A DNA stretch of 64,000 bases. Source: Blastobasis lacticolella (taxonomy: Eukaryota; Arthropoda; Insecta; Lepidoptera; Blastobasidae). The translations under genes and the position numbers were made by a program. Numbering within the stretch: position 1 is the first letter of the stretch; the number at the start of each line of letters is the position of its first letter. The stretch covers positions 9,124,001 to 9,188,000 of the forward strand of contig LR990056.1 in the NCBI GenBank assembly GCA_905147135.1, written 5' to 3'. Under the pieces are notes generated by a model, which was not told where the DNA came from, made no database searches, and was given only the letters and a program-made list of their open reading frames with translations. Below, one piece after another: positions 3,428-60,449 of this stretch.

Positions 3428-5003
3428 GTATCACTACATAGCGTCGGACCTGACAGCTTGCTGATTGACCTGGTCCAAATTCCTAATCAGGACATATTTG
3501 ATTACGGAATGTCAAATCTTACATTCTCAAGAAATTAAGTATATTGCGGTGGATCTTTCAGCTATTTTCGACGATGAAAATTTAGATTTACAAATTGTAA
3601 GTACTCTATCGATCGATTTTACTCGATTTTATTAACATCGAAGATCCTACTGTGAAAAGATAAAGCAAGTCACTGAAAAATATAGTAAGAACTATGAAGT
3701 TAAAATTGACCATGTGGTGCACGTCAGAGTAGTAGTGTAGAATTTAAGTATTACGAGAGTTTTTCAGGGGACGGGGATTTTCAGGATGGGGTGACGATAC
3801 TCACCCGATGGACGGTTACTGTGATAGAGTGTGAGAAGGGTTGTTCTCAGCGATTTCTGTAGAGTATTTAGTACTGATATTTTCAATCCGCCTCTGTCAA
3901 GAAATTATGGAAAACCTTTCACTAATAATACAGAGCAGTTTGATACACTGGTTGATGATTTTATATATTAAAAGGAGGCAACGACGATGAAAAACTAAAT
4001 CAATATCGTTGAGCAAAATTTCTTTATGATTCGGTTGATGGTAACGTTATTATTGGTTGAACTTGCAGCGACTGCAGAGTATGGTGAGCTCGGGGATTGC
4101 GCGCGGGCTGGTTCGGCCGTTGTCGCGTGCAGTGTTCTCGCCATTCGACACGACGCGCCAGCCGGCACCGTGGGCGCGCGCTGCTGCATCTGCAGCAGCC
4201 CCTGCCACCGCCACAGCCACGGTACGACTCACTGCCATCCTCCGGACAACGGTACTCCACCATATCGCGCCACGCACTTACAGTCGCCGTGTTGCAGGCT
4301 GTGCTACGCCGGCGATGCCTGGCAGGTGCTGGTGTGCCACGGGGACGCGTTCGCGCTAGCGCTTGCGGAGCGGCTCGTGGCGCGCGGCGCCCTCCATCTG
4401 ATGCTGCATTGCGGGGCCGAAGCGCCACTACCGGCTCTGCGCTTCAAGCTAAAGTTAGATTCATATGCACTTCTAAAATTAAGACCTTCATACATTGTAT
4501 ATCTACATTTTTCCACTAAGTTATAATCTTGACTTCTTATCCTTGTTTCTTTAACAATTATCTAAATTATCATACACATTTTTATATTACACTAGCGACC
4601 CACCCTGGCTTCCTCATGAATCACTCTATCTGTTCGTGAAAACCACATGAAAATCCGTTTAGTATTTTTTGAGTTTATCACGAACAGACAGACAAACAGA
4701 CGCGTCGTGGGACTTTGTTTTATTAATATAGTGATGGTGATTACAGTCTTCTTAATAATTCTCATTTGGTATTCTACTACTTTACAGCTTACGGAAAGAA
4801 CTTGGAGTAAATGTGGTTATTTCTAGTGAAGACCTAACCACTGATAAAGGAGCTCTAAATTTGTTAACTGACGTTAGTAGACTGGGTCCAGTAGAGGGTA
4901 TATACGTAATTGCTAATGTGACATCTAATGCGGCAGGGGACAAGGTTGATGCCGAAATAAGCAACCTAGATAAGGCATCGAGGAAATTATGCCCATCAAT
5001 TAA
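3428..5003 (+). pseudogene. Orphan pseudo-exons 29-32 of the fatty acid synthase-like gene
   Basis: Four exon copies with splice sites still visible: 3428-3596, 4069-4221, 4298-4453 and 4788-5003. They correspond to exons 29-32 of the main gene (end of ER and first part of KR). The first has a 4-bp insertion that shifts frame and creates a stop just after a TFSRN stretch. The second lacks 20 bp net relative to 41769-41941, which also shifts frame. The last two remain open. No other synthase exons occur upstream or immediately downstream, and the transporter gene lies between these and the real gene. They are best read as dead passengers of the segmental duplication. Confidence 0.95.
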
Positions 5004-23203: not shown

Positions 23204-26200
23204 ATGACGCCCACACCGCAAGAGATGCCAGCCCGCGATGACGAAAGCGATCTGTGCAGCAGCCGCGATCGCATCGTTATCTCCGGGATGTCAGGCCTCT
23301 ACCCGGACTCACGGCACGTCAAAGACCTTGCTGAAAAACTTTACAACAAGGTCAGCTATAAGTCTTTTTGTTTGTGTTTTCGAGAAATGATTAATTTACG
23401 AATACGTCCATTTTGATTATTCGGCTTATTAGCTATGTTCATTGCAAAATTGTGAAAGCAAGTTATTTACCACCCGGCTGTTTCCGTAGTTGTGTTTCAC
23501 TGTTCCACATAGTTATTTGTCCAGCCACAAGCTCTTTTTCTCATAAAAATTAAAATATTAATATATTTTAGGAAAATCCAATTAAAGCGGCTACGCGCTG
23601 GAATTACTCCGACCCCGAGACATCGAAATACAGTGGCACGGTGCCAGGTCTGGATCGCTTCGACGCTCAATTCTTCAAAGTACATTACCGTTTAGCAGTG
23701 AACATGGACTCGATGGGACGCAAGGTGCTCGAACAGGCTTATCAAGCCATTTATGACTCCGGTAAGAACCAGTTTCGGTGCTAAGATGTGTGATTATTTG
23801 GCCGTGTGGTGTCCGGCAGAGTAGAATAGCACCAACCACTTACACTCATGGGTGTCGTACAAGGCGACTAATGTTTTCGAGGCAAAAGATCAAGATGCTC
23901 CGTAGTCTGGAAAATGGGCAGCAGCATTTTCCATTGTTATATTTAAACACTGCGATATCCAACCCGCCTGCCAAGCGTGAAGATTATGGCAATAACTTCC
24001 CCTTTCGTGGGAGAGGCCCTAAGTCCTGCAGTGGACTGTTACGGGCTGTGATGATGTGATGTGTGATTATGTACCGTAACTTAAAGGTCTTCTGGAAACC
24101 GAGCCATTTTGACTGATTAACCAATTTTTTTTCAGGTACAAACCCAGATAGCCTCAATGGTAAGAAAATTGCGGTATTCATTGGGGCATGTTATTCGGAG
24201 ACTGAGAAGTATTGTTTTTACGAGCTTCATGCGAGAACTGGACTTGGACTTGCAGGGTTGGTATTATATAACAAGTAATTAATATATACAGGTTGAATTT
24301 TCCGAGTTATATGATTTGTGTACCTCTCTAATTTGTGACATTTATTGCATTAATCATAGACTTTTATTAGTTCTCTTCATCGTATGAACATGTTTTACAA
24401 CTTTTAATCTTTCTTCAGGTGCAGTAAAGCTATGTTTTCGAATCGTGTGTCGTACTGGTTGAATGTCAAGGGTCCATCGGTGACTATCGATAGTGCGTGC
24501 GCCAGCTCGCTGGTGGCGTTGCAACAAGGTTACGAGGCCATCAAGCGAGGGGACTGCGAGGCGGCGATTGTTGCGGGCACTAGCATCACGCTGCATCCCC
24601 AGCAAACTATTCATTACGCAAGGTAACTTTACCTAAAACCGATAATTGTTCGTGTTAGTTTCTAACTTAAATGTCTCAAAGAGAATCCTATAATAATCTA
24701 TATACGTTTATGTAGAATGGTGAAAATGAGCCAGGATGGCAACACGAGGTCGTTTGATGAGAATGCTGCTGGGTTCTGCCGGACAGAAGCCATCAACGTC
24801 CTTTACATTCAAAAATCACAAGATGCCAAGAGGTAATTGAAAAGATATTCGATTTATGGTTTATAAATTTGATTTATAATTGCAAATACACAGATATAAA
24901 ATATTTATTAAAGAAACAGACAAAACAGGAAGGGTATTTACATTTAAAGAAGAAGAGGAAAAAAAACTTAAAAATCACTATACATACACATAAAAAATTT
25001 AAAATGTCGTCCACACCGGCACCGCTGCCTCCGGAATTGTGCACAAAAAGCTGGCTCGTTGAATAGCAATGCTTATTCTGTAACCAAGGATTGAGCCTGC
25101 TCTCCGGTCATCTGTGGTGTCTATTAGATTTTTGAATTTAAAAAAAATAAGTTTTTAGCACTAGGGTCCCACGGCCCCAACGTCTTGACCCCAAACAGCT
25201 GAAATGTACTAGGCTTTCATATTTTCGTCGCTTGAGATCTTCAGTAGTAGAGACCGCAGCTCCAGCGCAACAAGTGTTGGCTACTACATGAGACGGCGCC
25301 AGACTGTCCACACATGTAGCGTCCTATACCAGCGCCTTCCCACGTTGCCAAGCAATGATCGTCATATCATCAGGTCACTTACTTACACTTACATTCGGCT
25401 CGAATATAGCCGGTACGTTGACGGTGACAAGTGCACTACGGATGACGTCATTTATTGCCGCGTGCCTGGAGATACACGTGCCTGCGTTGCGGATACACGA
25501 AAGACCGTGGTAACCTAGCGCATCTACGAGGCACCACAGGGACAACAATGTGAACGAACTAGATTGACCCTCAATCTGAAACCCATACATAGTGACAACT
25601 ACAAGTTTTTTTTATACCACCAAGGTGGCAAACAAGCTTACGGCTACCTGTTGGTAAGCAGTCACCGCAGCCTATGGACGTTTGCAATACCAGGGGCACC
25701 ACCCACGCATTGCCGACCCCGTAAAACCCTTTTTAACCCTTTCTTGAAGAACTCCATGTTGTATTCTCCAGGTAAAACCTCTTCAGGTAGTTCATTCCAT
25801 AACCATAGTGTGCGTGGGAAGAAGTTCCTTTGGAACCTCACAGTTCGCGACCAATTTGGCTCCAAGGGGTGAGGATAAACTCCCTGTCTCGGTGGCAAGC
25901 GGTGCGATGATAGAATGTAATTGTCCAAAACTATGCCGATATTGGAGAATGGGACTGTTTGCAGCCAGAATCCCGACTCTCGCTCTGAAACGTTAAGAGA
26001 CGAGCCGGTTCCAAAATATTTGCCGAAGAAATTATTAAATCTTTTAGATTTTTTTTTCATATAGGTGCGTTCCATAGCCGTTGATGCATCGGAGACCCTG
26101 GGGGAAACACACTTGGACTGTACTTAGCCAGGGTTTTTTAGCATCTGTGCAGCAAGGACTGTCAATAAAACGTATGTGTGATAAGAGTCACACTGCCCAA

Positions 26201-29200
26201 CAACAGGTCCTTGTGATGGACCTACGCATTAAATCCCAAGACAAATACCGGTAGCAGTGCTGACTCCAAACGCTGTGGTTGCTTGAAGGAACCAAGTCCC
26301 ACGAGTTCGCCGCTGTGTTGTTACAGCGGTGAACACGTCCAAAAACTCTGGCACAAAACTCAGGCAGATATCGCACGGGCGGGACGGACGGTGCTGGGGT
26401 TGTCTAATGGTGGTCGCAGACTTGACAAAGAGACCTGGTACTGGAACGAATCAGTCCAAAGGGAGACCATGCTTTAGCGATCAGATGTTTTGAAGACCAC
26501 GAGACCACTTACGCCTTTTGTACGATAAGTTGGAATCATTGGAGGTAACCTGTTCTGTGATGACCGCGCGGTAATGGAGAGATGGCGCTCGTACTTCCAT
26601 GAGCTGCTCTTCAAGCAGCACACAGAGGCTTCCTTCGCAACCAAGGACTTGTGCCACAGATAACGTTAGAGAAAGTCGAGATGGCTTTTCGCCGCATGAA
26701 GAATCGGAAAGCCGTCGCACCCGATGGAGTCCCTATCGAGGCATGGAAATTGTTGGGCTCTCGTGGTGTGAGCATCCTTACCGGCCTGTATAACCGTCCT
26801 CCTCGTCCATCCTCCCCACGCACCGGGAAGACACCCGACCAATAGAGGTTAAGTATTATTACTCCAATTTATAAGGGCAAGGGCTCGGTGCGGGAGTGCA
26901 CCAACTACCGCGGTGATGCCTCACACCATAAAACTCTTTGAATGCATTGTGGACTCTCATATTCGACGAAAGTGTACAATCTCGGAATGTCAGTATGGGT
27001 TTCAGTGGGTTGTGGGACCATGGACCCCGAACTTGCCCTGAAAACTCTCATGGAGGGATACAGATCAAAGAACACGCTACTGCATTTCCTGTTTCTGGAT
27101 ATGCAGAAAGCCACTGTGTTGTGTGGAGATAATAAAGTGGGGCGTTGCGATCCAAGTCGATGCCCGAGGCCTATCATTATCCGAAACTACGATTCCGATT
27201 CTATTAGGACTACCGTTCTGTTAGGGCTGCCGTTGGTGACTTAAGCCGTTCCTTATTACCTTTGGTGTACACCAGAGCTCTGTGCTCAGCCCATGTCTGT
27301 TCAACGTGATATTAGACGTATTGTCAGACAGCATCCGAGATTATCCATGGCTGCTCCATAGCTGCTCATGTATGCTGACGATATTGCGTTGACAGACTCT
27401 GACATGGGGCGACTAGTCCAACGTGTTAAAAAGTGGAAGGAAGCCCTTGAGAACGGTGGTCTGAAGATTAATGTGGCGAAGACAGGGAATCATAGATGGC
27501 CTGCAACAGTGCAGATCCCCTTCTCGTGCACATAGGTGAAGATGAAGTCTAGTGCACGGATCAGCGGGGCTATTGGCTAACTCAGTTGAGAACTGTATTT
27601 GACACTGTATAATTCTACACCACGTCATCTACGTTGAAAACTGGCAATAGCGTCTACCAAAGTAGAGTAGTGTCAGATATTTTTATGTCAAATTCAGTTG
27701 TCCACTGAGATAGCCGATAGGCCCTCAGATCAGATACATGGGATCTATACTTAGCGCAACCAGAGACATCGATACGACGTCAAGTCCCAAATATCCGCCG
27801 CTTGGGCCAAATGACGGGAGGTGACAGATGTCAGTTGTGACCCCAAAATGACGATAAAGCTGAAGGGACAGAGCTATAAGACCATCATTAGACCTGCTTT
27901 CCGATACGGTAGCGAGACTTGATCCCTACTAGAGCGACACAAGCAGGAGCTGCGCGTCACGGAAATGAACATGGTGCGGTAGATGTGTGGAGTTTCACGG
28001 AAGGATCGCGTTCGTAACGCCCACATTAGGGGTAGCCTCTTTCTTCTTTCTTTCTTCTTTAAGACCGAGTGAGGTGGTCCAAATGTAGCAGGAAGGTAGA
28101 CCCCTCGTGTGCTGCGCGGGGTTATTTGTTAGTCAAATTTGAGTCCAAAAAGAGATCACATTTTGAAAAATTAAAGAATAAGCCAATTATTCTGAAGAAG
28201 TAAGTTCCAAGTCATCCAAAACTGTAGAAACTCCACCTCCTTATCATTCCTCATCTAAGTACCAAACATTTAATTTGGATTTTAATTTTGAAATAATAGG
28301 AAGTATTGCCACACTGAAGAGCGCTGGTTCGAGCGGGTCTCCCTGTTGACACCCTACTTCTGAGTTCAAAACATGGACTTGTACAATAATATTGACGGGA
28401 ATGATAACATTGTCAAATGTTGGGTAGGAAGTCTGGACACTGAATTTTAATTTCTTTGAGTAGGGTGTCTCTTTTAATAAAAATTTAAACCATTTTTGAC
28501 ATCCATTTTTAGCACGACTTCAGCCTGGTTGTTGGTAAGAAAAGTACGTAAGGCGTGTACTGAAGCTTCGCAGCCACCTAAATGAAATATTAATTTTATT
28601 CATGTTCCTATAGAATATATGCGGAGGTGGTGCATGTGATGAACGAGTTTAATGAATTGATACCGGGCGCGACTGGGCCTAAATATGGCTTCTATCGCAG
28701 CCCGGACCGGTTGGTCGAATTCATGGAGCGATTTTATAAAGAATCAGGAGTTTTCCCGAAGGATGTGGATTACGTAGAAGCATTTGGATCCGGTAATTGC
28801 TTATTCATTAGCTTAGCTGAGTGAATTTTGAGCATTTAATACATGTATAGAAAGTTACTCTGTTTCAAGTGTATTTTAGACTAAATTATGATAGGTACAA
28901 AAAGTTCCAAATGATCTAACGTCTGTATCGGTGACACCACTTCTTTGATTGGTCACATATAATTTTATTTATTAAAGAATTAACAATTTATACAAAGGAA
29001 TATAAAAGAAGACTTAACTTATAATAGAATAGTAATAATACTTACTCCGTAATTAAATATAAAATTGAAACTTAAAAGTGAATAGTATCGATAATTAATT
29101 TAACGAAAAGCAATTCACCAGCCATACCCGAGGTGGACAAGGTGGAGCTGGATGCTCTGGATCGCGTGTTCTGCGAGGGCAAGGAGAAGCCGCTGCTGGT

Positions 29201-29555
29201 TGGCAGTGTGATGTCCAACATCGGCTACGGCGAAGCTGCCTCTGGGATTTCTGGCATCACCAAGGTCGGTTTTGCCCTACGAGCGTGGATTACATGTGAA
29301 TATCATCTGTATCTGGCAGTCATTGGGAACGATGTATTGGTTTGCTTGCAGGTGCTGCTGGGGTTCGAGCGCGGGCAGCTGGCGGCAAACTTGAACTGCG
29401 AGCGGCCGCGGCGCGACGTGGCGGCGCTGCGCGAGGGCCGCATGCGCATCGTGAATGAGCACCAGCCTTTCAGTGGCGCCTACGCAGCTGTCAACGCGCT
29501 TTCGGTCGGCGGCGTAAATGGACATGTCTTGCTGCGAGGATTTCAAAAACAGAAG
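23204..29555 (+). CDS. Synthase-like exons 1-8: ketosynthase domain (residues 1-435)
   Basis: Exons 23204-23350, 23572-23761, 24136-24256, 24419-24622, 24716-24832, 28614-28792, 29122-29264 and 29352-29555. The domain opens with [13 protein letters not shown] and contains the nucleophile box [11 protein letters not shown] (Cys180). In working animal synthases the condensation step also needs a His in EAHGTGT and a Lys and His in KSNMGH. Here these read EAFGS (Phe317), then Met350 and Tyr355 in [15 protein letters not shown]. The fold-defining end, [14 protein letters not shown], is preserved. So the thiol is present but both His and the Lys are replaced. Condensation is unlikely; the Cys could still hold an acyl group. 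Intron 5 (24833-28613) is filled with retroelement remnants. Confidence 0.93.
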
Positions 29556-32500
29556 GTATTACAAAAGTAGACATTGACATAGACAAATACATAATTTTAT
29601 TGGTAGTAAATGTTAACAAGTCATTATTTGTTGTAACCTAGATACATTGTGCATAGGGCAGTATTGAAATAATAAATTTACTACTACAACCTACTAAGTG
29701 TCATCTTTAGTTTTCGTTTTTTTTTTTTATTTTAAGATCCCTACACGATACCAGTCATCCATTCCTTATTTGGTACAAATTTCTGGGAGATTCGACACAG
29801 CTGTACAGAATGTTGTCAACGACTTAAAGTCACGACCTATAGACCCGGAGGAGATCGCACTATTGCATAATATACATTCCTCAAGCATATCTGGACACTT
29901 AGGGAGGGGATACGTTATTCTTGGTAAGTTCAACCTTACGAAAAAGTACATCGAGGGGAAAACAAATAAAACTGATTTTTAATCAACTATATACCTACGA
30001 ATTAAATTTCAGATAAAACCGACATAGGGGAAACCGCGGGTCTTTTCGAAAAGGTCAGCTATTTCGATAAAGCCCGCCGTCCGCTATGGTTCGTGTACAG
30101 CGGAATGGGCTCGCAGTGGGCCGGCATGGGCGAGCAACTCATGCGCATACCATTATTTTCGGCTGCTATAGAAAGGTACGACCATTCACAAGTGACTCAA
30201 AAACACGGCCCCAATTTGTTAAAAGCAGATGATTCTTACTAAAACGCAATGCTATATTGATTTAGTTTTTGACACACAGCAACAGTTTTGAGACATTTTA
30301 AGTTAGTAGGTATATAAATAAGAAGGTACTAAACGGCGGGCGACGTCCGTTGTACGACCATGGTTGCACGACCGTTGCCAATTAGGACAGCGCCTGAGAC
30401 TGGTTAAACAGTCTCTTGAGCCGATTGTTCCCCGTGACGGTATAATTTATTATTGTATATTCCTATTTGTTTTCAGATGCCGTAAAGCGCTGGAACCTAA
30501 AGGAGTGGATATCGTGCACATAATTACCTCGCGAGAAAAAACTATATTCGACAATATTCTACACTCATTCGTGGGCATCGCTGCGATACAGATCGGTCTT
30601 ACCGATGTCCTCACTTCTGTGGGTGTTGTTCCCGACATGATTATCGGTTAATATTGCTACCACATATTAATACTTCTTACACTACAATAAGAGCGGGTAT
30701 CAATGATTAAGGTGCGTACGAATTAGAGGCAGCCTCAGGTTGAGGCACGCACGGCTCGCCTATGTGCTTAAATTCGTACGTGGCTCACGCGCAGCTCACG
30801 GCGCACCGCGAGCGTGTGCGCCGCGAGCCGCCAATTGTGGGTTTTCTGTCCATGCTCAAAGGTGCCTCGGCGTGCGTGCCTCGCGAGTTTGGACGTGTAT
30901 CGGAGCCTCGAAATAAAACTACGAATGCGGGCGTATTGTTTATTGACACTTGACAACTTTCATATTTTCTTTTAAAACTTCAGTGTCGTGACGAAAGGTC
31001 AATTAAACTGTTGGTCTTCCTAATAAATAAATTAAATAGATTAAAAATTAAATTAATAAATTAAAATAACAAATAAAAAAGTAAATAAATAAAATAAATA
31101 GAATAATAAAATAATTAAATGAATAATTTGGAAAACTTATATACTAAACAACATGGTGCGGATCAAGGACAAGGTATTTTATTATTATATGAGCAGAAAA
31201 AAGTGTTATGGGATAGAAAAAACTCAAATTATTTTAACAATCCGATTAATTATTTTAAAAGTAGCATCAGCTGTTATCGCGTACAACGCCATTTTGTTTG
31301 TGCGGCGCATTTGTGGCTCGCCGCGAGTACGTTGCCTCAACGCACAAACAAATGCGCAACTGAGCAGCCTGCGCGCGGCGAGCATGCCTCGGGCTGAGCC
31401 GCTCTAATTCGTACGCACCTTTAGAATGGATGTTTCGTACAGGGCACAGCGTGGGCGAGCTGGGTTGCGCGTACGCCGATGGCTGCTTGACAGCGGAGGA
31501 AATGATCCTGTCTGCATACAGCAGAGGATTGGTTTCTGTTCAGACACCATTCATTAAAGGGTCCATGGCGGCGGTGGGAATAGGTTACGAACAGGTAATA
31601 CTATGATAGTATTTAAATATCATATTTTATTAATGTGTGTTTTTGAACTAGTTTTATATTTAAATTTTCACTTCACATTCAGATTTCTCAACTGGTCCCG
31701 CCAGAAATAGAAGTGGCCTGTCATAATGGACCAGAATCGTGTACGATATCAGGACCTGTAGATAAAATGCGCGATTTCGTGGCTCAGCTAACAGAGCAGA
31801 AGATATTTGCCAAAGAGGTGCCGTGTTCCAACATTGCTTATCACTCCCGGTACATTGCGGAAGCAGGTGTGTACAATAAAAATGATTTGTTTAATCATAT
31901 TATGTTTACTGGAAGATATTGTATTGTATTGAAGCAGGTTAAAGATCAAGCCCAAAGATTTGAGTGTCTGTGTCATCATATCAGCCAGAAGACGCCCACT
32001 GCTGGGCATAGGCCTCCCCCAGAGAACTCCACAAAGGCCGGTCCTGTGCTTTCCGCATCCATCAGGTACCTGCGATACTTACCAGGTCGTCGGTCCACCT
32101 TGTAGGAAGCCTACCCACGCTGCGTCTTCCGGTACGTGGTCGCCACTCGAGAACTTTACTGCCCCATCGGCCATCTGTTCTTCGAGCTATGTGCCCTGCC
32201 CACTGCCACTTTAGTCTGGCAATCCTTAGAGCAATGTCGGTGACCTTGGTTCGCTTGCGGATCTCCTCATTTCTCGTTCGCTTGCGAGCGAGCATAGCTC
32301 TTTCCATTGCCCTGTGGGTATTTGTATTTGTATTTATTTATTTAATTCAAACTACATTTTGTATCTTAACACTTAATGACACAAAACCCGGATGGGTTTG
32401 TCTGTGTCTACCTGGCTATTTATTACAAAACACACTCGTTCACTACAAAATCGAATTTTTTCAAGTTTAACGGATACACACCCACATTATCAATATCCAT

Positions 32501-53500: not shown

Positions 53501-56500
53501 TGCCGCGGCACGCCGCAATTACTGTTTTCTCAATGCATTACACGCATTATTGAACATAATGCTTTCCCCTCTTATAAGGAGTTTATCTTTGCTTATTGAT
53601 TTCTCTTCGCTATGACGAAAAAAACTTCTTACTCCGGGCGTAAAAGGGGTTTCTTCTTTCGTCATTTACTCTACGGCTTGCGGGCCGTTCTTTATTTTGT
53701 GGTCGCAGTTTTGCTAAAAATATTTATTTTTCAAAAAATAATTGTGTAGGATTGGCTAGACTTAGTTTTTTTTTCACCTGATACGAGTTCCGTATTTTGC
53801 ATTTTTTCGTTTTTCATTCACTTTGTACCGGCTGGATCTTAGTGAACACCTTTTATGAACCGCTAGACCGCATCCTACAAACTATAGGAAGCCACTGAGA
53901 ACGCGGTTATTACAATTTAAAAATACTGTCACGGCTAAAGAGGGCAAACTGTTTTTTATTCTGCGGTGTTTGTGGGACTACCACGTCTGCTGCAGAGGGA
54001 TAAGCAAAAATATGTATAAACTTATAAAATATCTACAAGTTATTGGTATATCTGTGTTAATTTTTAGGACCTTCTTTGTGGTGAATGGCGGAAAAGTAGC
54101 GGGCTTAAAAACATGTCTAAAGCGAGTTGAAGATGGTATGCCGGGAAAAGTATTTCGTCCTCCTGCGATTATCAACGCGACTAAGGTGAGTTTAGCCGTT
54201 TGGTGTTCGGCTGAGTAGAATGTGACACCAACGGGTATCGAGTCACCCAACCAACAAATAACCAACCAGTCAGTACGACCATGTATTTATAGGCAGACTA
54301 CATTGGGGACAGGACAATGAATTGGAATGAACATGACGTTCGTCTAAATTGACTTCTGAAGAAAATGACCTGCCTCGCTAAAAGATGAGAACCTCTTTCG
54401 GTTACTAATGAGGAGGAGGCTCCAGCAGTAAACTGTTACGAGCTACTGATGTGATGGTGCATGAGAGCTTTGATTAGTTTTTTTTGTACCACTAAGGTGG
54501 CAAACAAGCTTACGGCCTGCCTGATGGTAAGCAGTGACCGCAGCCTATGTACGTTTGCAATACCAGGGGCATCACCCACGCGTTGCCGACCCCGTAAAAT
54601 CCTTTTAACCCCTTTCTTGAAGAACTCCATGTTATACTCTCCAGGGAAAACCTCTCCAGGTAGTTCATTCCACAACCTTAGTGTGCGTGGGGGAAAATTC
54701 CTTTGGAACCGCACAGTTCGCGACCAATTTGACTCCAAGGTGTGAGGATGAACTCTCTGTCGGTGGCGAGCGGTGCGATGATAGAATGTAGCTGTAGGCA
54801 TCATGTCAAACAGTTCTTCAGAACAAACACCGTTGTACAAGCGGTAGAACACACAAAGTCTTTATAACGAATGACTGCCTGATGACTGGTGATGGTGTTA
54901 TCCTGCAGGGAACCGGCGTATCTCTGCGTAGTACGGTGCGGGCTGCTGAGAGTGCGCTGGCCGCGTCGCCACTCGCTCTGGTCGCCTACGCGCCGCCGCG
55001 GCCCCCGCGCCGCCTCTTGCGCCAGCTTGCCAAGATTGCAGGTCTGTATTTCTAATCTATCTACAAAAACAGAACACTGTCAACATAATTATCATCCAAG
55101 CGGTTAACTTCGACATCGCCAGGACCCGATTTCCTGATCTTACTCCCTCATTTCGCTCTGTTTTCGAAATCATCACGTCGTATGCATCATCATTGAAAGT
55201 TCTCGGGCAGGCTTTTGACGCAGACTGCGTGTCCGAGTTTTGTGGATGTCAGATATTATTCTGGTAATAGTACAATAAGTAAGTAGTGGTGGCGCCCTTT
55301 GCGCTCGAAGCGAGCTACTAGTATCATATAATTTGCTACCATAAAAATCTTTTGTGCTGCCTCTTCACGGCTTATCGCATTGTAATTCCGCATTTTTTAT
55401 TAGAACAAGATACTGAAAAATATGCAAGTATATGCAGTATAACTAATAGTTGAATATTGTAGGTATCAGCATCCCAGAAGGCGCTGACGCATCGAGCACC
55501 CTTTCCGAATTGGGCATAGTTGTTGAGGTGGCCCCTGCGATCTCCATCTTCTTAAATGACGTGCACGGCCTTAATATCGACGAGACGGTCATTCCACATT
55601 TGACTATTCAGAAGTAAGTTACAGTGTGTGATTACATGTAATTAGAGCGAACAATTACAAGAAAAAAAAAAAGACTATTCCAATAGTGATCGAGCCTAAC
55701 AAAATAATTAATTACATTACCGATATTTTCTAAAATGTCTATTTAAACTAGCTTAATAACAATTTATTCATATTCAGTATTCAGCCTAATCGGAACATTA
55801 AAATGTGGGTGACTTTATAGCACTTAAACGGAAAATATAGCTTTTAATTAATTGCCCATATACCATATCCTTTAAATATTTCTTACGTTGTCAATGGTTG
55901 TTTAACAGAATCCAAGACTTAGACAACAAAGTATTGGGGTATGAATTCAAAGAAGTGTCCGGACTTGCAACCTCCTTCCAGTATGTAGAACCGGATGAAC
56001 TATCGGCGACAGTCGAAATTGTATCCAAGCCGACGTTGATTTCTGCTTGTGATTCGGTAAGTAATAAGCATTTTAGGTAACGAGTATTCCGCTGTGTTGT
56101 TACTATGAAGAAAACTGAGACGTACATTGCCGAGCATTCTCTCAATTCCAAGTAATGTGACATGATGTGACTCTATTCAATATTCCAAATATTTATTTAG
56201 TAATACATAAATTTTTACAAAGACACCCCCTGTCTCATTCCATTCGTCTGTTATAACTACCTGCTTTTTTAGTCATGGTAGGTGATAACGGAAGGTGCAT
56301 TTTCGCGAGAGTATCTCTGATATTGTAATATATTTAAGATAAAAAAAAAACGCAAAGAAGGCTCCAACTCATGGACTTACTACCCAAAGGGACTGCGCAC
56401 TGCTTTGACTAAAACCGGGCAGAGCGAGAGTCACCATCGATAGTCCTTTGTCCCTTTCTAACAGTGTAAACACAATGTTATTGGCATAATCACCGTCATT

Positions 56501-59500
56501 CTAAATTGACAAGTGTCATGTTTGGTGTTGCCATTATTGGAGAAATATATTTACCGTGAATTAAGTATTATTATGAGGTAATCCGTACAATCCGAAAAGT
56601 AGTTGTCAAAATACCTTTTGATCTACTGAACGTTTCTCCGACAAACGTCGAGTCGACATTATTATTAACCTACGATTTTTAGTTCCACAAAACAGATAAA
56701 AGAGTTCGGTAACGATTTATCCTACAACACTAGTTTCTAAAGAGAAGTGATAGTACTCGTCGATATCTACATTTCGGGTGACAGCTGTCAAACTTAAATG
56801 TGTTATAACTCGGAACCCATTGGTTCTAGAACACTAGTTTCTAAAGAGATATGAAAGTACTCGTTGAGATCTACATTTCGGATGACAGTTCTAAGTTTGA
56901 CAGCTGTTATACAAAATGTAGAATAAATATTGTCCACGAATATTTATTTATCATTTCTCTCTAGAAACTAGTGTTTTAGGACCAATGGGTACCGAGTTAC
57001 AAAAGATTTAACTTTGACAGCTGTCATACGAAATGATGATCTCGAGGAGTGCTATCATTTCACTCTAGGAACTAATGTTCTAGGGCCAATAGTTTCCGAG
57101 TAGCAGGGTAAGCTTGGGCTGGACCCTGGTGAAAACATGACCTTCAGATTGCACCCGGTCCAGCTCTGCCTGGCCCTGAGGTCGGTGTCCGCGCCAAATA
57201 ATAAAAGTAATTCGGAATTTGCATCAACAATGGTGGCAACACTAGAAAGGGACACAGGACTATCGATGGTGACTCTCGTTCTGCCCGGTTTTAGTCAAAG
57301 CAGTGCGCAGTCCCTTTGGGTAGTAAGTCCATGCTCCAACTCATGACAAGAATATTCTTTGTCTGCTTTTCTGAAATAGTGAAATTTAGATGTTATGGCC
57401 AAGGTGAAATTGAAGTTATGGTCCACTACATTATGGTTTGTCATTGAAACGTTAAGAAGCTCAAATTCATTGATTATTATGGTGGAATTTCAAATAGGTA
57501 GCCGCCAATGTTTAAAAGTATGATATGAGAAAATAATAATAAAGACTCATTTTTATGTATGCCCACAAAGATAAAAATATCTAGTTTCTATATTTTGTTT
57601 AGTTTGTGACTGGCGTAAATCGAATTTTTCCGAATCAGTAACGAATCAGTAATTTTTAGCGGATAGGGGTGAATGGAGAAAGATAAGCTTTTTTCATGTC
57701 ATAGGGTAGGTGTACAGTCAAGCGGGCCACCTGATGGAAAGTGGTCATTACTGCCTATAGACATTTTGGAAACACTAAGAGTATCGGCAATGCGTTGCTC
57801 ACCTCTATACACTTTGCTCTGGCAGAAAAAAGGCAAATACCCCTCAACTGGGCAAATACCAAAGCCACGGTTCCCAAAATCCCTACCCCATGGAGCACTG
57901 GAGGCCTTACTCACCGGCAGAAACACAATACTATTTAAAAGAGTATTGTCCAGCTGCGGTATTCTGCAAGGTACTGCCCCAGTCCGGCGGCTCCAATTCG
58001 AACGGGATACCCCGATATGCCCTACCTCTCTTAAAACTGCCCTACTGTACCGACCCCAAATGAATGGGATAAGGGCAGGCAAATGATGATCTCTATATGT
58101 ATTTTTCAGCCTGGTAACGAGATAGACGTGAGCTTGCCCCACATAGCAATATTCCCCGGGCTGGAGGATAACAACGTGCGCTTCAATGCGCTATGCGAGC
58201 GACTTAAGTTGGCGGCAGTAGTGCTGCAACGCGGCCTCGACTACCCGCGTGAGACGATATCTGAAACCGCATATCGTTTCACGGATGTCAGTAATATTCC
58301 ACTTTCATTTATATTTGTGTAATTTTAAACTCTGCTTGATCATGCGCTGTGGCCTAGGCTTTAGCCTGGGCTGCAGCATCTAGCGCGATCGAGCAGCCAC
58401 CCGGCGCCACAGTAAAATAAATCTTGCTTAGTGACACATGACTGCTCGTAATTTGAATTTGATATTTCTTTCCGCATTAACGTGCTTAGCTGGATACATT
58501 TTTTTTCGACAGGTTTTACTGAAACGAACGCAAGTCAAAAAGAGATTCTGTCTACTCGGATATGAGACTGGTGTGATAATTGCCCTAGAAGTAGCATCAA
58601 TACTGGAAAAACTTGGTGAGTTATTTATTTACTTCAGTGTTAGATTATCGTTATTAAGGGTAGCTGATGAGTCCATGGTCCGGCAAATCTATGATGGAAA
58701 TATCCATCACTCAACGGAAGGTACGGTGGACGCTAATCTAGATAATCGTATGTCAAGTGAGCCTGATAGCCTGTATACCGACGGTGATTCTAAACTGAGT
58801 GCTCCCGAATTGGTTATTGTATTACCGCGCCTTGTTGCGCTCTCATACTAGGATAGTCCCGTTTTCGTGGAACACTGCCCATATGCACCCTGTGACCAAA
58901 AAAGGCGACAGATCGGTCCCATCGAATTACAGGCCTATCGCTATTACCTGCCTTTTCTCTAAGGTGATAGGGCAAGTTACTTGGAGCTGTCACGTCGTAA
59001 CTAATGTTTTCCAGGCAAAATCTAGACTCCGTAGGCTGGAAAATGGGCAGCAACGTTTTCTATTGTTATATTTATAATACTGCGATCTCCAACCCGCCTG
59101 CCAAGCGTGAATTTTATGATAATAACTTCCCCTCTCGTAGGAGAGGCCTAAGTGCAGGACTGCAAGTGCGCTGTTATAGGCTGTGATGATGATGATGATG
59201 ATGATTATAGAACGCAGTGCGTTAACTTAGCAAATAGTCGCTAACGTGCACTGTGAGAAGTATTTTACTTCGCATAATAAAGCTAAATTATTTAGAATGA
59301 ATTCGACCAAACGAGAGTAAATTTTATTCTTAGATTAAATTGCCAGTAAATCTAGAGTATGCAATTTTACGTTTATAATTTGAAAAATATTGATCCTATT
59401 CGGAAATGAAATGGAATGAAATTACATTTTTGTTGCTTTATGATACCACATCTAAAGCTCGCAATACAAACTACACATATACTTACAGCTGGCAGTAAGT

Positions 59501-60449
59501 AAACGATGCACAATAACAACATTATGTACAAATTATCAAATATTACCTACCTACATGCCACTCAGCATCGGATCTGCTGTAGTGTGGTACCCCCCGACGA
59601 CAAAAGGACCTTGCTCAGCGTATGCAATGGCCTGAAATAAATGGCATACCATCGTTTTGCCTGGATTAGCGGACTTTTAAACTAGTATTGTTTGTAAATA
59701 TGGGTGTAAGAGTCAAGATCCTTCTTAGAACTAACATAGAGTAGGAGTATTTTTTTTTATTTCGATCGTACCTCTATCTTCAGTTTTAATGGAGGCTGAT
59801 AACCAATACACATGCAATTGTAGGAATGATTTTAATCGTGGACATGGTGTGCACAGGTCTGACTGGCACGGTGTTCCTGGTAGGCGGGGGGCCCGCCGAG
59901 ATCCAGGCGGCGCTGGCCAAAGAGCTGGCGTCGTATGGGACCGAATCTGAGCTGCAGATTGCCGTGGCGAAGCACCTGTGTTCACTGATGGCGAGCGAGG
60001 AGAAACCTGAAGACGCGGCAGATATTGCGGAGAAGGTAGCGGCAGCGTTGAATAGTGACGCGCCGTGGAGTAGCCTAGTGGAAGGATGCGTACGTCAACT
60101 GCTGGGCCGCGTGCCGCACTCGGCACAATACGCACGAATACTTATCGAAGCTGTGCCCGCAAAGATTGAGCAGGCGCGCACGTACAAGATGCAGCTACCC
60201 ACGCTTCAGTCGCAGCTCGTGGTAATCCACACAGCTGGGACGCCTGAATGTGCATCGGACCTGCAGCGCTACTCAGCTCAACCACTGGTAGAGTACAACC
60301 TGAATACACCGCTCGGAAACATCACTGATGACTTACGCGTGGCCTCCATCGTCAACCGTCATCTCGATTCGGATGTCCTGACTGCTTTCAATAACACACG
60401 CCTCTGCGTGAAATATGCTTTAGTTAACTATGATTTGAGTAAACGTTAA
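23204..60449 (+). CDS. Fatty acid synthase-like multidomain protein, 39 exons, catalytically degenerate
   Basis: By homology an animal type I fatty acid synthase, a cytosolic megasynthase that builds palmitate from malonyl-CoA. Thirty-nine coding exons (listed in the domain entries) with recognisable splice sites join in phase to 2314 residues, with no stop or frameshift; animal synthases are about 2400-2500. Domain order is KS, AT, DH, central core, ER, KR, ACP, TE. The reading frame is intact, but KS, DH, KR, ACP and TE have lost essential residues while AT keeps its Ser-Arg-His set and ER its nucleotide loop. It therefore cannot be a conventional synthase alone. It may be a pseudoenzyme, a partner subunit, an acyltransferase-only protein, or a very young pseudogene. 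The start is the first ATG after an acceptor at 23197. Introns are packed with transposons. Intron 14 is GC-AG. Confidence 0.93.
23785..24062 (+). repeat. SINE/LINE-tail repeat in intron 2, copy 1
   Basis: Contains GGCCGTGTGGTGTCCGGCAG, TGGAAAATGGGCAGCAG, CCAACCCGCCTGCCAAGCGT and a GTGATGATG tail. The same arrangement recurs at 58980-59205 and, more diverged, at 54190-54455 and 38870-39057. Confidence 0.8.
24833..25560. other. Part of intron 5, unassigned
   Basis: No host exon. The GC-richer part 25150-25540 has coding-like composition and is probably an unrecognised transposon fragment, but I see no diagnostic motif. Confidence 0.4.
25590..26075 (-). mobile_element. LINE 3'-end fragment, copy 1
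   Basis: The minus strand encodes a common C-terminal tail of insect LINE polyproteins ([20 protein letters not shown], then [15 protein letters not shown] and GIANVHRLR), followed by its 3' untranslated sequence. A close relative lies at 54470-54855 on the same strand. Confidence 0.8.
26160..28030 (+). mobile_element. RTE-type LINE remnant in intron 5
   Basis: Plus-strand frames, broken many times, carry an RTE-like succession: [17 protein letters not shown] (end of endonuclease/linker), [20 protein letters not shown], a [22 protein letters not shown] stretch, [13 protein letters not shown] (catalytic box) and a C-terminal [19 protein letters not shown] is nested in it at 27566-27724. It is sense to the host gene and dead. 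Confidence 0.8.
27566..27724 (-). mobile_element. Short MITE, copy 1, nested in the RTE remnant
   Basis: Imperfect terminal inverted repeats (GGGGCTATTGGCTAACTCAG at left; the right arm reads GGGCCTATCGGCTATCTCAG on the minus strand). GATCAG flanks both sides (27559-27564 and 27727-27732), a candidate target duplication. A second copy in opposite orientation is at 52596-52765. Confidence 0.8.
28130..28570 (-). mobile_element. Reverse transcriptase remnant with QQGDPL box
   Basis: The minus strand contains [17 protein letters not shown], then [18 protein letters not shown] and [12 protein letters not shown] followed at once by a stop. These resemble RT motifs of a LINE with a YLDD catalytic box, here damaged. 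It is antisense to the host gene in intron 5, just upstream of exon 6. Confidence 0.75.
28793..29121 (+). other. Intron 6, nothing notable
   Basis: AT-rich intron between exons 6 and 7. No repeat or coding signal is recognised. Confidence 0.6.
29737..35300 (+). CDS. Synthase-like exons 9-15: linker and acyltransferase domain (residues 436-831)
   Basis: Exons 29737-29923, 30013-30175, 30477-30646, 31443-31594, 31683-31866, 34519-34667 and 35116-35300. After a linker the malonyl/acetyl transferase motifs follow: [14 protein letters not shown], the nucleophile elbow GHSVGE (Ser611), the substrate-binding Arg in AYSRG (Arg636), and the catalytic His in AYHSRYI (His713). It ends with [11 protein letters not shown] and [17 protein letters not shown], as in true synthases. 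All three key residues are kept, so this is the one domain predicted to be fully active. Exon 14 ends at a non-canonical GC donor (TTG then GCAAGT), which keeps the frame. Confidence 0.93.
30710..31420. mobile_element. MITE with PIF/Harbinger-like features in intron 11
   Basis: Terminal inverted repeats AGGTGCGTACGAATTAGAG at 30710 and its complement ending at 31420. They are flanked by TTA on both sides (30707-30709 and 31421-31423), the 3-bp target duplication typical of PIF/Harbinger. Both ends are GC-rich with further inverted similarity (GGCTCGCCG-type arms); the middle is an AT-rich AAATAA run. No transposase. Confidence 0.85.
31975..32310 (-). mobile_element. RTE LINE 3'-end fragment in intron 13
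   Basis: The minus strand encodes the C-terminal tail typical of RTE elements ([54 protein letters not shown]). Only the 3' end is present. Confidence 0.85.
32720..34450 (-). mobile_element. Non-LTR LINE remnant in intron 13
   Basis: The minus strand encodes an RT with [18 protein letters not shown] (about 34030-34085), then [32 protein letters not shown] and [14 protein letters not shown], and a C-terminal part ending near 33269. A stop and frameshift lie near 34018. Upstream pieces extend to about 34450, just before exon 14. It is antisense to the host gene and dead. The outer limits are approximate. Confidence 0.82.
34772..34817. repeat. Perfect 22-bp inverted repeat in intron 14
   Basis: AAGAGCCAGGTGCAACACCT and two more bases (34772-34793) pair perfectly with 34796-34817 across a two-base spacer. 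The transcript would form a strong hairpin. Direct AACTAGTTyCAA repeats lie just upstream. Confidence 0.9.
35466..36888 (+). CDS. Synthase-like exons 16-21: dehydratase-type double hotdog (residues 832-1146)
   Basis: Exons 35466-35585, 35662-35771, 35876-36066, 36211-36362, 36451-36705 and 36774-36888. The usual first catalytic box, DHxxxGxxLFPATGYL, reads [16 protein letters not shown], so the catalytic His is Asn905. The second box is kept: [10 protein letters not shown] with Asp1052 and Gln1056. Loss of the His should abolish dehydration. Similarity outside the boxes is moderate but the length fits the family. Confidence 0.87.
37042..37873 (+). CDS. Synthase-like exons 22-23: central core (residues 1147-1371)
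   Basis: Exons 37042-37296 and 37454-37873. They lie between DH and ER, where animal synthases have the inactive methyltransferase-like and structural KR parts. No catalytic motif is expected. The first exon contains [12 protein letters not shown], which resembles the strand motif of the methyltransferase-like fold. Exon 23 is markedly GC-rich in its middle third, unlike its neighbours, and produces misleading open frames on the minus strand. Confidence 0.85.
38006..41941 (+). CDS. Synthase-like exons 24-30: enoyl reductase domain (residues 1372-1716)
   Basis: Exons 38006-38155, 38234-38346, 38432-38582, 39103-39274, 39356-39468, 41131-41295 and 41769-41941. Visible motifs are [33 protein letters not shown], the NADPH loop [13 protein letters not shown] (from residue 1521) and the Lys-rich SDSRKKKFL segment. 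The domain ends with [27 protein letters not shown]. The catalytic-region Asp of other synthases is Asn1592 (GEGCNVV). The domain otherwise looks able to bind NADPH. Exons 29 and 30 lie in segmental duplication copy B and have broken twins at 3428-4221. Confidence 0.9.
38583..39102 (+). other. Intron 26 with a diverged repeat tail
   Basis: No exon. The part 38870-39057 is a diverged copy of the repeat tail seen at 23785-24062 (GACCAGAAAATGTACAACAG, CCACAATATCCAACC, AGTCCAGCAGTGA). Confidence 0.55.
39820..40976 (-). mobile_element. Non-LTR retrotransposon remnant (reverse transcriptase), copy B
   Basis: Better-preserved twin of 2160-3270. The minus strand has [43 protein letters not shown] and [16 protein letters not shown] in one 203-residue frame (40066-40677). 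A further upstream piece, [17 protein letters not shown], lies near 40930. The 3' tail of TATG-type repeats is near 39990-40016. It lies in intron 28 of the synthase-like gene. Confidence 0.85.
42018..55041 (+). CDS. Synthase-like exons 31-34: degenerate ketoreductase domain (residues 1717-1924)
   Basis: Exons 42018-42173, 42507-42722, 54068-54185 and 54909-55041. The ketoreductase nucleotide loop GGLGGFG is replaced by CHGDAFA (residues 1730-1736), followed by the recognisable [13 protein letters not shown]. Exon 32 is well conserved ([13 protein letters not shown]). Exon 33 starts [11 protein letters not shown] and then goes straight to [10 protein letters not shown]. About 16 residues that normally carry the catalytic Ser, Tyr and Lys are absent within one exon. 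An apparent frame jump before exon 31 is explained by a 76-nt GT-AG intron (41942-42017). Intron 32 is 11.3 kb and holds the Pao element and a MITE. Confidence 0.88.
42723..45824 (+). other. Start of intron 32, duplicated non-coding DNA
   Basis: Matches 5004-6585 and 9441-10925 of copy A. The ATTGGTGACA at 44298-44307 is the unoccupied Jockey site. No exon is seen. Confidence 0.8.
46585..47586 (-). CDS. Pao/BEL late RT and RNase H fragment
   Basis: A 333-residue frame starting [19 protein letters not shown], which in complete Pao elements follows the YVDD palm. It continues through [17 protein letters not shown], the RNase H segment ([52 protein letters not shown]) and stops before integrase. 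A piece of integrase C-terminus is readable at about 46340-46580 ([20 protein letters not shown]). The integrase catalytic core is absent. Confidence 0.9.
   Translation of the reverse strand: MIELMNSGGFQIQKWSSNNENLLQHISRDKHNANVSVPLKGDNMLKVLGLCWNRKSDKFEYTVSLPTPKHPITKRQVLSDIARLYDPLGWIAPVVVTAKIMIQKLWKAELEWDESLTEELLAEWLQYRHELQQIRNITIPRWVYCEQKFNLELHTFSDASRAAFSAAVYLRVVNESGKAFVSLVSAKTAVAPIKKELSIPRLELNGATLAAKLLNEIMQVMNIQKNQLFAWTDSTIVLAWLKRGASKWTTFVSNRVSIILTILDYEQWGHVTTDTNPADCASRGVKPEELKNHHLWWNGPEWLSEFKPLEKKNDHVRETQEEERVKSLTIPYP
47583..50057 (-). CDS. Pao/BEL Gag-protease-partial RT polyprotein
   Basis: An 824-residue open frame of the retroelement. The N-terminal half is a Gag-like helical region. 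Zinc knuckles [14 protein letters not shown] and [13 protein letters not shown] follow near residues 370-400. An aspartic protease with [12 protein letters not shown] lies near 470, then the linker and early RT ([29 protein letters not shown]). The frame ends just after this point because an internal deletion fuses it out of frame with late RT. It belongs to the mobile element, not the host. Confidence 0.9.
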   Translation of the reverse strand: MTMADRLIIIQNELLERLRKSELNYKKSPKDRLKLPYIETRLEALEELWQDFKKRHYDIVSCASSSERKSSKYFIDDIYDQFDEVYTTYKTTLKTALNEFVKEPIKEVCSEPAKNVDVQLPRIQLPTFSGKYDEWQGFYDMFSALIHKNKSLSNVQKLHYLKGNLSGEPERLLQNFPTTDLNYDEAWKQLVRRYNNKRYNVNAVLKTFFSQKVLMSESASEIKQLLDTTTSCLKSLKNMGIPDICDVMVIYIVVSKLDTESHKLWEQHMSVLSEDLSTWEQLVDFLESRFRSLEMIEAGKATNATPSYKFRPSAKTKSFHAAVQDNRKTDITCSMRNDQHYLFHCPSFDKQTVNQRVDFIQSTRLCFNCLSPNHVVSKCRQPTCCKKCGKRHHTMLHFERNSAVEDSTKDDKNDRGKQIQKTSSSEETKLVAHFAKGELQSYKVLLATASIYASSTYGRKYVIRALLDQGSQASFITESTVQLLSLKRIPVNGVVSGLGDGQTRIKHMVSLKIEARHNPDLSLQIDAYVLGTLTSMLPGDKLTCEWIELPTLELADPGYAKPGKIDILLGAEIYSKVILNGIVKSPHENLVAQNTVFGWVLSGKVSKNLSSRSDGVINMHVQVKEDDLLKRFWEIEAETDSIQKKLTDEEIKCQKIYNETTTRNECGRFVVKLPFKQADPECQYGNSREIATRRLLSLERRLANDPYLRREYENVMEEYLALNHMTAVDECDIENPKAVYLPHHAVVREDRETTKVRVVVNASSPGENGVSLNDDLMVGPKLQQDLRHLLMRWRLHPICIVADLVKMYRQDVTLRAKLYKFMKR
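50644..51423. mobile_element. MITE present only in copy B
   Basis: Ends GGGCGCATTTTCATTGGTCG and, inverted, AGGTGCATTTTCATTGGTCG. TAT lies on both sides (50641-50643 and 51424-51426), while copy A has a single TAT in AAAATATCTAG (about 10943-10953). Internal GGTCGATAA/TTCGGGGACT phrases repeat. No coding capacity. A second inverted-repeat element is nested inside. Confidence 0.85.
50848..51336. mobile_element. Nested element with perfect 35-bp terminal inverted repeats
   Basis: 50848-50882 begins GGCGGATACTACACACACGA and is the exact reverse complement of 51302-51336. The termini include ATATATAT-centred palindromes (CGATATATATCG). Internal CGATATATATCG and CGATAAATATCG copies recur near 51178-51190 and 51280-51290. 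It lies within the MITE at 50644-51423. Confidence 0.88.
52596..52765 (+). mobile_element. Short MITE, copy 2
   Basis: Opposite-orientation relative of 27566-27724. The ends are GGGCCTATCGGCTATCTCAG and, inverted, GGGGCTATTGGCTAACTCAG. The internal GATGACGTGGTGTAGAATTA is shared with the other copy. It lies in intron 32. Confidence 0.82.
52990..53405 (-). repeat. Dispersed SINE-like repeat, copy 3
   Basis: About 415 bp matching 61390-61825 in inverse orientation, including CGGTGAGGGAAAACATCGTG, ACCAATAGGCTACTTACGTT and TGAGCCAATCTGGTCAGG. Internal ATTTCAAT(G/T)ATTGAAAT palindromes occur twice. Confidence 0.82.
54190..54455 (+). repeat. Diverged repeat starting at the exon 33 donor
   Basis: GCCGTTTGGTGTTCGGCTGA, AGTAGAATGTGACACCAACG and the closing GGCTCCAGCAGTAAACTGTT match the family at 23785-24062. 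It begins within about ten bases of the donor GTGAGT of exon 33. Confidence 0.65.
54470..54855 (-). mobile_element. LINE 3'-end fragment, copy 2
   Basis: The minus strand encodes [35 protein letters not shown] and [10 protein letters not shown], closely related to 25590-26075. It lies in intron 33. Confidence 0.82.
55463..56056 (+). CDS. Synthase-like exons 35-36: acyl carrier protein fold without the phosphopantetheine Ser (residues 1925-2024)
   Basis: Exons 55463-55613 and 55909-56056. [13 protein letters not shown] aligns with the carrier signature SSLADLGLDSLMGVE. Spacing and the following helix ([15 protein letters not shown]) fit, but the DSL becomes VVE, so the Ser that receives the phosphopantetheine arm is Val1945. 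Without that arm the protein cannot shuttle intermediates by itself. Exon 36 is a linker rich in acidic residues. Confidence 0.88.
56370..57333. mobile_element. Non-autonomous DNA transposon with 8-bp target duplication
   Basis: Long inverted terminal repeats: CATGGACTTACTACCCAAAG at 56370, through about 56467, pairs with 57240-57333. CTCCAACT flanks both sides (56362-56369 and 57334-57341). Inside are repeated and inverted blocks (ACACTAGTTTCTAAAGAGA; CTACATTTCGG(G/A)TGACAG). CA...TG ends with an 8-bp duplication fit P-like or hAT-like families; no transposase is present. It lies in intron 36. Confidence 0.88.
57690..58085 (+). repeat. Probable retroelement-derived repeat in intron 36
   Basis: GGGCCACCTGATGGAAAGTGG and CTGCCTATAGACATTTTGG resemble the untranslated tails of dispersed lepidopteran retroelements, and the segment is GC-richer than its surroundings. 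It precedes exon 37 directly. Confidence 0.5.
58110..60449 (+). CDS. Synthase-like exons 37-39: thioesterase domain with Ser-to-Glu change (residues 2025-2314)
   Basis: Exons 58110-58286, 58513-58615 and 59857-60449. [11 protein letters not shown] begins the alpha/beta hydrolase. The nucleophile elbow GYSYG of other synthases reads GYETG, placing Glu2101 at the Ser position. The triad Asp after the next strand (FLFDGSP) is Gly2127 in VFLVGGGP. A His (2286, NRHLDSDVL) lies 28 residues before the end, about where the triad His should be. Product release by hydrolysis is not expected. Exon 37 uses a GTCAGT donor to keep frame. The stop TAA is at 60447. Confidence 0.9.
58640..59205 (+). mobile_element. 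Reverse transcriptase fragment plus repeat tail in intron 38
   Basis: Plus-strand pieces read [20 protein letters not shown] and [20 protein letters not shown] with TCLFSKVIG, the N-terminal motifs of a LINE RT. They are joined to a copy of the tail repeat (TGGAAAATGGGCAGCAACG, CCAACCCGCCTGCCAAGCGT) that ends in a GATGATGATG run near 59190-59205. Confidence 0.8.

Follow-up and report, generated by a model that had tools for sequence, protein, structure and literature searches.

An open fatty acid synthase-like gene of Blastobasis lacticolella keeps its acyltransferase residues but has lost most other active sites

The DNA analysed here (the window: 64,000 nucleotides of the moth Blastobasis lacticolella, C17:9124001-9188000, from a genome of 577 Mb in 45 contigs) carries on its forward strand, at 23204-60449, a gene related to animal type I fatty acid synthase (FAS). 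The rebuilt model comprises 39 exons (6945 nt) and encodes a predicted protein of 2314 aa with a single terminal stop. This protein lacks the residues that a synthase requires to make fatty acids on its own, while those of the acyltransferase (AT) are all present. The gene belongs to an array, as genome searches with ketosynthase (KS) and AT sequences detected at least eight FAS-like genes, on both strands, at C17:9.07-9.90 Mb; members were counted by matches to the C-terminal part of KS, and these searches give lower bounds. All comparisons were made within this one genome.

Two intact synthases were used as references. The first, the canonical FAS at C18:18.00 Mb, was obtained as 18 aligned pieces (one of 1 nt) with intact motifs and has the same domain order as the window gene. 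The second is a many-intron paralogue at C17:4.59-4.64 Mb in which the catalytic motifs are present; its model, hand-edited from the acyl carrier protein (ACP) to the thioesterase (TE), is uncertain over that part, and the N-terminal end of both reference models is incomplete. Among solved structures, the animal FAS chains 9b7z, 6fn6, and 9b80, which we take to be human and fly FAS entries (6fn6 being Drosophila FAS), align to the paralogue over the KS, dehydratase to enoylreductase (DH-ER), and ketoreductase (KR)-ACP-TE regions, and for one part of it 6fn6 ranked first. The same search was made with a rough draft of the window protein, which aligned to 8vf7 over KS and AT and had EcPKS1/EcPKS2 among its matches; the finished protein was searched again against Pfam.

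Most exons of the window gene came from spliced alignments guided by these two synthases, exon 1 and the last seven exons being set by hand among phase-compatible splice sites, and exons 17, 31, 33, and 35 being placed by profile alignment, order, and phase (Table 1). All introns are of the GT-AG type, with the sole exception of a GC donor (GCAAGT, window position 34668) after exon 14; this donor is also GC in the pseudogene copy upstream and GT in another array copy, at 9.28 Mb. The totals are identical to those of a preliminary description made from the sequence alone, which had reported 39 in-phase exons and 2314 residues without an internal stop; the rebuild was not blind, since the ends and totals of that description were known beforehand. 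De novo exon chaining without homologues also gave, by coincidence, 39 exons, but it yielded 2064 aa with many false exons and was discarded. In the 9.28-Mb copy, modelled on the window protein with a hand-trimmed end of exon 38 and with exon 39 outside the compared stretch, all 38 exons sought were found open, with one 3-nt length difference, and this recurrence supports the 39-exon model. A reverse transcriptase (RT)-like stretch with stops, as judged by eye, follows exon 38 of that copy (C17:9316001-9321000).

The upstream copy (C17:9074793-9129003), the tail of which enters the window at 3428-5003, differs in its state. Thirty-two of its exons were found, most of them 95-99% identical to those of the window gene, and they carry a stop (codon 923) as well as two indels, an insertion of 4 nt in exon 29 and a deletion of 20 nt in exon 30. 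Its exon 12 matches the window gene over only 124 of 152 nt. A search up to window position 9000 recovered none of exons 33-38, and the rest of the C terminus was not found in window positions 1-23150 when the rough draft was used as the query. By its stop and indels, this copy is a true pseudogene.

Table 1. Features of the window (positions count from the first letter of the window).
Feature	Position	Strand	Residue or motif (codon position)	Remark
Exon 1	23204..23350	+	Start ATG 23204	Same exon in 9.28-Mb copy
Exon 2, KS	23572..23761	+		
Exon 3, KS	24136..24256	+		
Exon 4, KS	24419..24622	+	Nucleophile Cys180 kept (24498)	
Exon 5, KS	24716..24832	+		
Exon 6, KS	28614..28792	+	Phe317 (28783)	FGSAI runs across the splice
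Exon 7, KS	29122..29264	+	Met350; GHSE to GYGE, Tyr355 (29226)	
Exon 8, KS end	29352..29555	+		
Exon 9, KS-AT linker	29737..29923	+		
Exon 10, AT	30013..30175	+		
Exon 11, AT	30477..30646	+		
Exon 12, AT	31443..31594	+	GHSVGE Ser611 (31448), Arg636 (31523) intact	
Exon 13, AT	31683..31866	+	AYHSRY His713 (31842) intact	
Exon 14, AT	34519..34667	+		GC donor follows
Exon 15, AT	35116..35300	+		
Exon 16, post-AT linker	35466..35585	+		
Exon 17, DH	35662..35771	+	Asn905 (35759)	Profile alignment and order
Exon 18, DH	35876..36066	+		
Exon 19, DH	36211..36362	+		
Exon 20, DH	36451..36705	+	Asp1052 kept (36536)	
Exon 21, DH	36774..36888	+		
Exon 22, DH to structural region	37042..37296	+		
Exon 23, structural (between DH and ER)	37454..37873	+		
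Exon 24, ER	38006..38155	+		
Exon 25, ER	38234..38346	+		
Exon 26, ER	38432..38582	+		
Exon 27, ER	39103..39274	+	Cofactor loop GGAGALGQ; Lys1554 kept	
Exon 28, ER	39356..39468	+	Asp1575 kept	
Exon 29, ER	41131..41295	+		
Exon 30, ER end/KR start	41769..41941	+		
Exon 31, KR	42018..42173	+	Cofactor loop CHGDAFA	tblastn match only in other copies
Exon 32, KR	42507..42722	+		
Exon 33, KR	54068..54185	+	Tyrosine stretch SSVSCGRGNAGQTNY lost	Order and phase
Exon 34, KR-ACP	54909..55041	+		
Exon 35, ACP	55463..55613	+	DS to VV, carrier serine lost (55519)	Order and phase
Exon 36, ACP-TE linker	55909..56056	+		
Exon 37, TE	58110..58286	+		
Exon 38, TE	58513..58615	+	GYSFG to GYETG, Glu2101 (58564)	
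Exon 39, TE	59857..60449	+	Gly2127, His lost	Stop ends 60449
Upstream pseudogene, exon 29 equivalent	3428..3596	+		4-nt insertion
Upstream pseudogene, exon 30 equivalent	4069..4221	+		20-nt deletion
Upstream pseudogene, exon 31 equivalent	4298..4453	+		
Upstream pseudogene, exon 32 equivalent	4788..5003	+		Later exons not found
Repeat stretch	272..1983			
RT-like ORF(s)	6755..9201	+		PF00078
260-aa ORF	13480..14259	+		PF00083, weak
RT-like ORF(s)	18384..19751	-		PF00078
RT-like ORF(s)	33272..34024	-		PF00078
RT-like ORF(s)	40069..40701	-		PF00078
BEL/Pao-type element ORFs	46588..50084	-		PF05380, PF03564

The residues of the window protein were called against the two intact synthases; the assignment of catalytic residues in the seven domains follows what we take to be their established roles in the family. 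In KS, Cys180 is kept, but both histidines of the Cys-His-His set of a functional animal type I FAS are lost (His to Phe317, HGTGT to FGSAI; His to Tyr355, NxGHSE to NIGYGE), and a lysine is replaced as well (Lys to Met350, GS-K-SN to GS-M-SN). The DH histidine has become Asn905 (GHVIDG to GNVIKG), with Asp1052 kept. The KR can no longer be that of a working synthase as far as its residues tell: its cofactor loop GGLGGFG reads CHGDAFA and the stretch SSVSCGRGNAGQTNY, which holds the tyrosine, is deleted. In the ACP, whose exon was placed by order and phase, the carrier serine is replaced (Ser to Val1944, GMDSMM to GIVVEV), and none of the TE triad remains, with Ser to Glu2101, Asp to Gly2127 in LLDGAP, and the histidine lost. 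In AT, the full set that a functional FAS needs is present (Ser611, Arg636, and His713). The list of the preliminary description, in which KS, DH, KR, ACP, and TE each lacked essential residues and AT was intact, is thus correct, with the refinement that the KS cysteine and the DH aspartate survive; it was silent on ER, in which Lys1554 and Asp1575 are kept and the adjacent motifs have drifted.

Two of these features extend across the array. The KS GHSE histidine is a tyrosine in 8/8 members, and AT Ser/Arg/His are present in 8/8, the pseudogene included. Elsewhere in the genome, three clustered FAS-like genes at C5:15.92-16.02 Mb keep the GHSE histidine and read KSIMGHSE.

Gene structure points to descent of the window gene from the line of the 4.59-Mb paralogue. 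Of the 34 introns of the paralogue, 32 recur in the window gene at the same place and in the same phase, a comparison that is only partly independent because the paralogue also served as a guide, whereas a single one of the 14 introns compared in the canonical FAS is common to the window gene. The two proteins are 36.5% identical overall, and the identity is distributed very unevenly. The window protein matches the paralogue at 67% in AT and 60% in exon 16 after it, when the two intact synthases match each other at 47% in both. The remaining regions, given as window versus paralogue and then as intact versus intact, stand at 42% and 53% for KS, 40% and 44% for the linker of exon 9, 23% and 38% for DH, 18% and 27% for the structural exon 23, 33% and 54% for ER, 32% and 52% for KR, 21% and 41% for the ACP region, and 29% and 23% for TE. 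AT and the stretch after it are therefore closer to the paralogue than expected and most other regions are further away, TE excepted. The Pfam scores follow the same lines: AT (PF00698) scores 260.5 bits in the window protein and 254.9 in the paralogue, KR 23.8 versus 143.2 bits, and PP-binding (PF00550), Thioesterase, PKS_DH_N, and pseudo-KR, all found in the paralogue, gave no match in the window protein at E-values up to 0.05.

Selection was estimated between the window gene and the 9.28-Mb copy over 2117 codons of exons 1-38, with a bootstrap range and with neutral simulations carrying matched numbers of differences. The two copies differ by a dS of 0.176 and a dN of 0.054, giving a dN/dS of 0.308 (bootstrap 0.26-0.38). 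Neutral simulations gave a mean ratio of 0.77 with the estimator used, and 0/150 fell at or below the observed value. In the per-domain check that the preliminary description had proposed, KS (dN/dS 0.24), linker plus AT (0.26), ER (0.21), KR (0.20), and the ACP region (0.31) were each lower than all of 300 neutral simulations, so that a ratio near 1 in all domains, named there as evidence against a retained protein, was not found. None of the 489 nucleotide differences creates a stop, although neutral placement gave 14.8 on average and at least 5 in each of 300 runs. Over 6352 nt of exon, once the exon 38 end of the 9.28-Mb copy had been hand-trimmed, the two copies differ by a single in-frame gap (3 nt), whereas their 4008 nt of aligned intron contain 60 gap runs. 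Intron divergence was 0.21 over 26 of 37 introns (those of up to 600 nt in both copies), a figure inflated by introns 8, 10, and 17 (0.31-0.44), which are probably misaligned. The pooled dN/dS, from pairs that are not independent, was 0.081 in AT exons 12-13 (100 codons, seven genes) and 0.275 in KS exon 7 (40 codons). These results show that purifying selection has maintained the frame over most regions of the window and 9.28-Mb copies, which were compared in full, and the case for long-term constraint between these two lines is firm.

Changes that arose after the window gene and the upstream copy separated were assigned to branches by using the 9.28-Mb copy as outgroup. The window branch carries 27 synonymous and 42 non-synonymous changes and no stop (ratio 0.47), and the upstream branch 47 synonymous and 57 non-synonymous changes and 1 stop (ratio 0.37), with no difference between the two (p 0.44). 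The upstream copy was thus constrained for most of its life despite being broken now. For the window branch, naive neutrality is rejected (binomial p 0.004), and constraint since the last duplication appears likely, though not proven. The window gene shows neither the stops or frameshifts nor the near-neutral dN/dS of a pseudogene, its own branch being borderline.

Several further features were noted in the window. The ORFs with Pao retrotransposon peptidase and DUF1759 matches indicate a BEL/Pao-type element in intron 32, which measures 11 kb and precedes the KR exon. Among five RT-like open reading frames, two score below the PF00078 cut-off and one also matches PF14529; those at 33272 and 40069 lie inside introns of the FAS-like gene. 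The 1.7-kb stretch near the window start is probably a recent repeat: it is 97.7% identical to an inverted copy located 12-14 kb upstream of the window start, 489 bp of it recur at 99.8% in a third place, and a short repeat lies near its start. The 260-aa ORF between the two FAS-like copies has a weak sugar-transporter match (22.8 bits against a cut-off of 22.3).

Some features of the window protein have parallels elsewhere. Non-elongating ketosynthases (KS0) of bacterial polyketide synthases (PKSs) keep the cysteine and have lost the HGTGT histidine, as the window KS has, and the KS-beta subunits or chain-length factors of bacterial PKSs are inactive partners of an active subunit. The window protein differs from both in being an animal megasynthase whose other domains are dead too.

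The closest description is that of the insect "aberrant" FASs of cluster III in a 2016 grasshopper study, in which the PP (ACP) domain is missing, DH, ER, KR, and TE are modified, and KS and the malonyl/acetyltransferase (MAT) are present (PMC5039406). Aberrant FAS expansions are reported there for Lepidoptera and other orders, as is a lethal effect of RNA interference against a similar Tribolium gene. The window gene fits this description at the domain level, with an absent PP domain, altered DH, ER, KR, and TE, and KS and AT present, its KS being a Pfam match with the catalytic histidines lost. The available text scores domains, makes no mention of catalytic residues, and calls KS and MAT unmodified, and the term "active site" does not appear in it (PMC5039406); unlike that account, the present one concerns a KS without both histidines and an array of at least eight genes, with selection measured by region. 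Arthropod AFPKs are likewise FAS-like paralogues, which are described as producing polyketide-like lipids and in some insects are linked to hydrocarbons (PMC10764717), but the window protein lacks the KS and ACP residues that polyketide synthesis would need. Residue-level losses in insect FAS arrays were described in none of the titles and abstract openings among the matches listed.

We lean towards the view that the window gene encodes a full-length pseudo-FAS, related to animal type I FAS but catalytically crippled, which is one of at least eight array paralogues and has AT as its main intact site. Its product is very probably a retained and useful predicted protein, and the balance tips slightly in favour of AT catalysis being in use. 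Such a protein would fold like FAS, with AT as the main working site, and would move a malonyl or another acyl group from CoA to an acceptor. Since the ACP carrier serine is gone, any such transfer would have to occur in trans. The acceptor might be the ACP of an intact FAS with which the protein forms a mixed dimer, or it might not be an ACP at all. For animal FAS, mutant-complementation experiments are reported to show that the AT of one subunit can act on the ACP of the other. In a mixed dimer, the AT could alter the starter, extender, or chain profile of the intact FAS, and pairing with an intact paralogue would explain the constraint on the KS, ER, and KR regions; this specific arrangement is rather unlikely. 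Alternatives to it are an AT that works independently and a non-catalytic scaffold. An animal megasynthase array reduced to a dedicated trans-acyltransferase, with the KS-KR-ACP body as a docking frame, may be entertained as a tentative possibility. The preliminary proposal of a retained pseudoenzyme or repurposed acyltransferase scaffold is supported by the dN/dS of 0.31, the recurrent losses, and the 67% AT identity to the paralogue.

A number of observations weigh against a retained protein centred on AT. The loss of the ACP serine leaves the AT without an acceptor of its own, and ER retains its lysine and aspartate, so that AT may not be the sole activity. The DH region (dN/dS 0.60, with 76 of 300 neutral simulations as low) is indistinguishable from neutral, and the structural exon 23 (0.39; 19/300) and TE exons 37-38 (0.41; 17/300) are no more than suggestive of constraint. 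The test along the gene's own branch, which had likewise been proposed, became borderline against calibrated neutrality (two-sided p 0.060, one-sided 0.035). Because the broken upstream copy was equally constrained, past constraint is no proof of present function, and a recent loss of function in the window copy alone may have taken place. The array-wide statements draw on one KS and two AT exons in each of the five further members; the status of DH, KR, and ACP was read in the window and 9.28-Mb copies, with the KR loop also in the upstream copy, the TE serine in the window and 9.28-Mb copies, and the TE aspartate and histidine in the window copy alone.

The whole product, AT included, could instead be retained in a non-enzymatic role, whether by scaffolding an intact synthase, pairing with it in a dimer, regulating it, or sensing acyl-CoA for it; the AT fold would then bind without having to turn over. 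Pseudoenzyme partners are a known theme, and the constraint on the dead KS, KR, and ACP regions and on the altered ER is more than a lone AT function would need. However, AT is the most conserved part of the protein, its Ser/Arg/His are unchanged in all eight copies, and a pure scaffold would have no need of a nucleophile; we regard this explanation as unlikely, yet to be taken seriously. It is improbable that the array is simply decaying by chance, with a window copy that has not yet been frameshifted. The stop, indels, shortened exon 12 match, and missing exons (33-39) of the upstream copy would fit such decay, as would the near-neutral DH and the borderline window branch, but the KS loss is common to 8/8 copies and the other losses to both fully read copies, and losses common to copies predate those duplications. 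The window and 9.28-Mb copies then diverged (dS 0.18) at a dN/dS of 0.31 without a stop.

An artefact of the gene model or the assembly, with losses that merely reflect overlooked exons or errors in the sequence, is very improbable indeed. It could be argued from the guide role of the intact paralogue in placing many exons and from exons 17, 31, 33, and 35: tblastn with paralogue exons recovered the KS, KR-lysine, and TE exons of the window, but E17 (DH His), E31 (KR loop), E33 (KR Tyr), and E35 (ACP) gave no match at those window places at E-values up to 1; for E31, matches were obtained at E-values of 0.005 (9.28-Mb copy) and 0.07 (upstream copy). However, the exons end in in-phase splice sites, and searches of the window with nine paralogue exons in tblastn and with six-frame motif patterns recovered neither an alternative exon with a lost motif nor any lost site in intact form. 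Only the KS cysteine motif of exon 4 and one ACP-like sequence (GLDSL at 13900, minus strand, judged by eye to be an unrelated chance match) fitted these patterns. The same residues are changed in the 9.28-Mb copy, in addition to the array-wide KS change, and losses that recur in separate copies are not sequencing errors; assembly or splice errors that would restore the residues, which the preliminary description had asked about, were not found as far as these checks reach.

Insect FAS paralogues have been linked to cuticular hydrocarbons (PMC5039406, PMC10764717), and domain-deficient insect copies were already known but unexplained. That these copies have retained AT and the reading frame but lost most of their other active sites indicates which activity matters and makes the function directly testable. 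The array genes probably encode a protein that has taken on a new role instead of making fatty acids, and insect "FAS" annotations may include proteins that make no fatty acid. If the trans-acting AT reading is true, an animal megasynthase would have been turned into a dedicated trans-acyltransferase.

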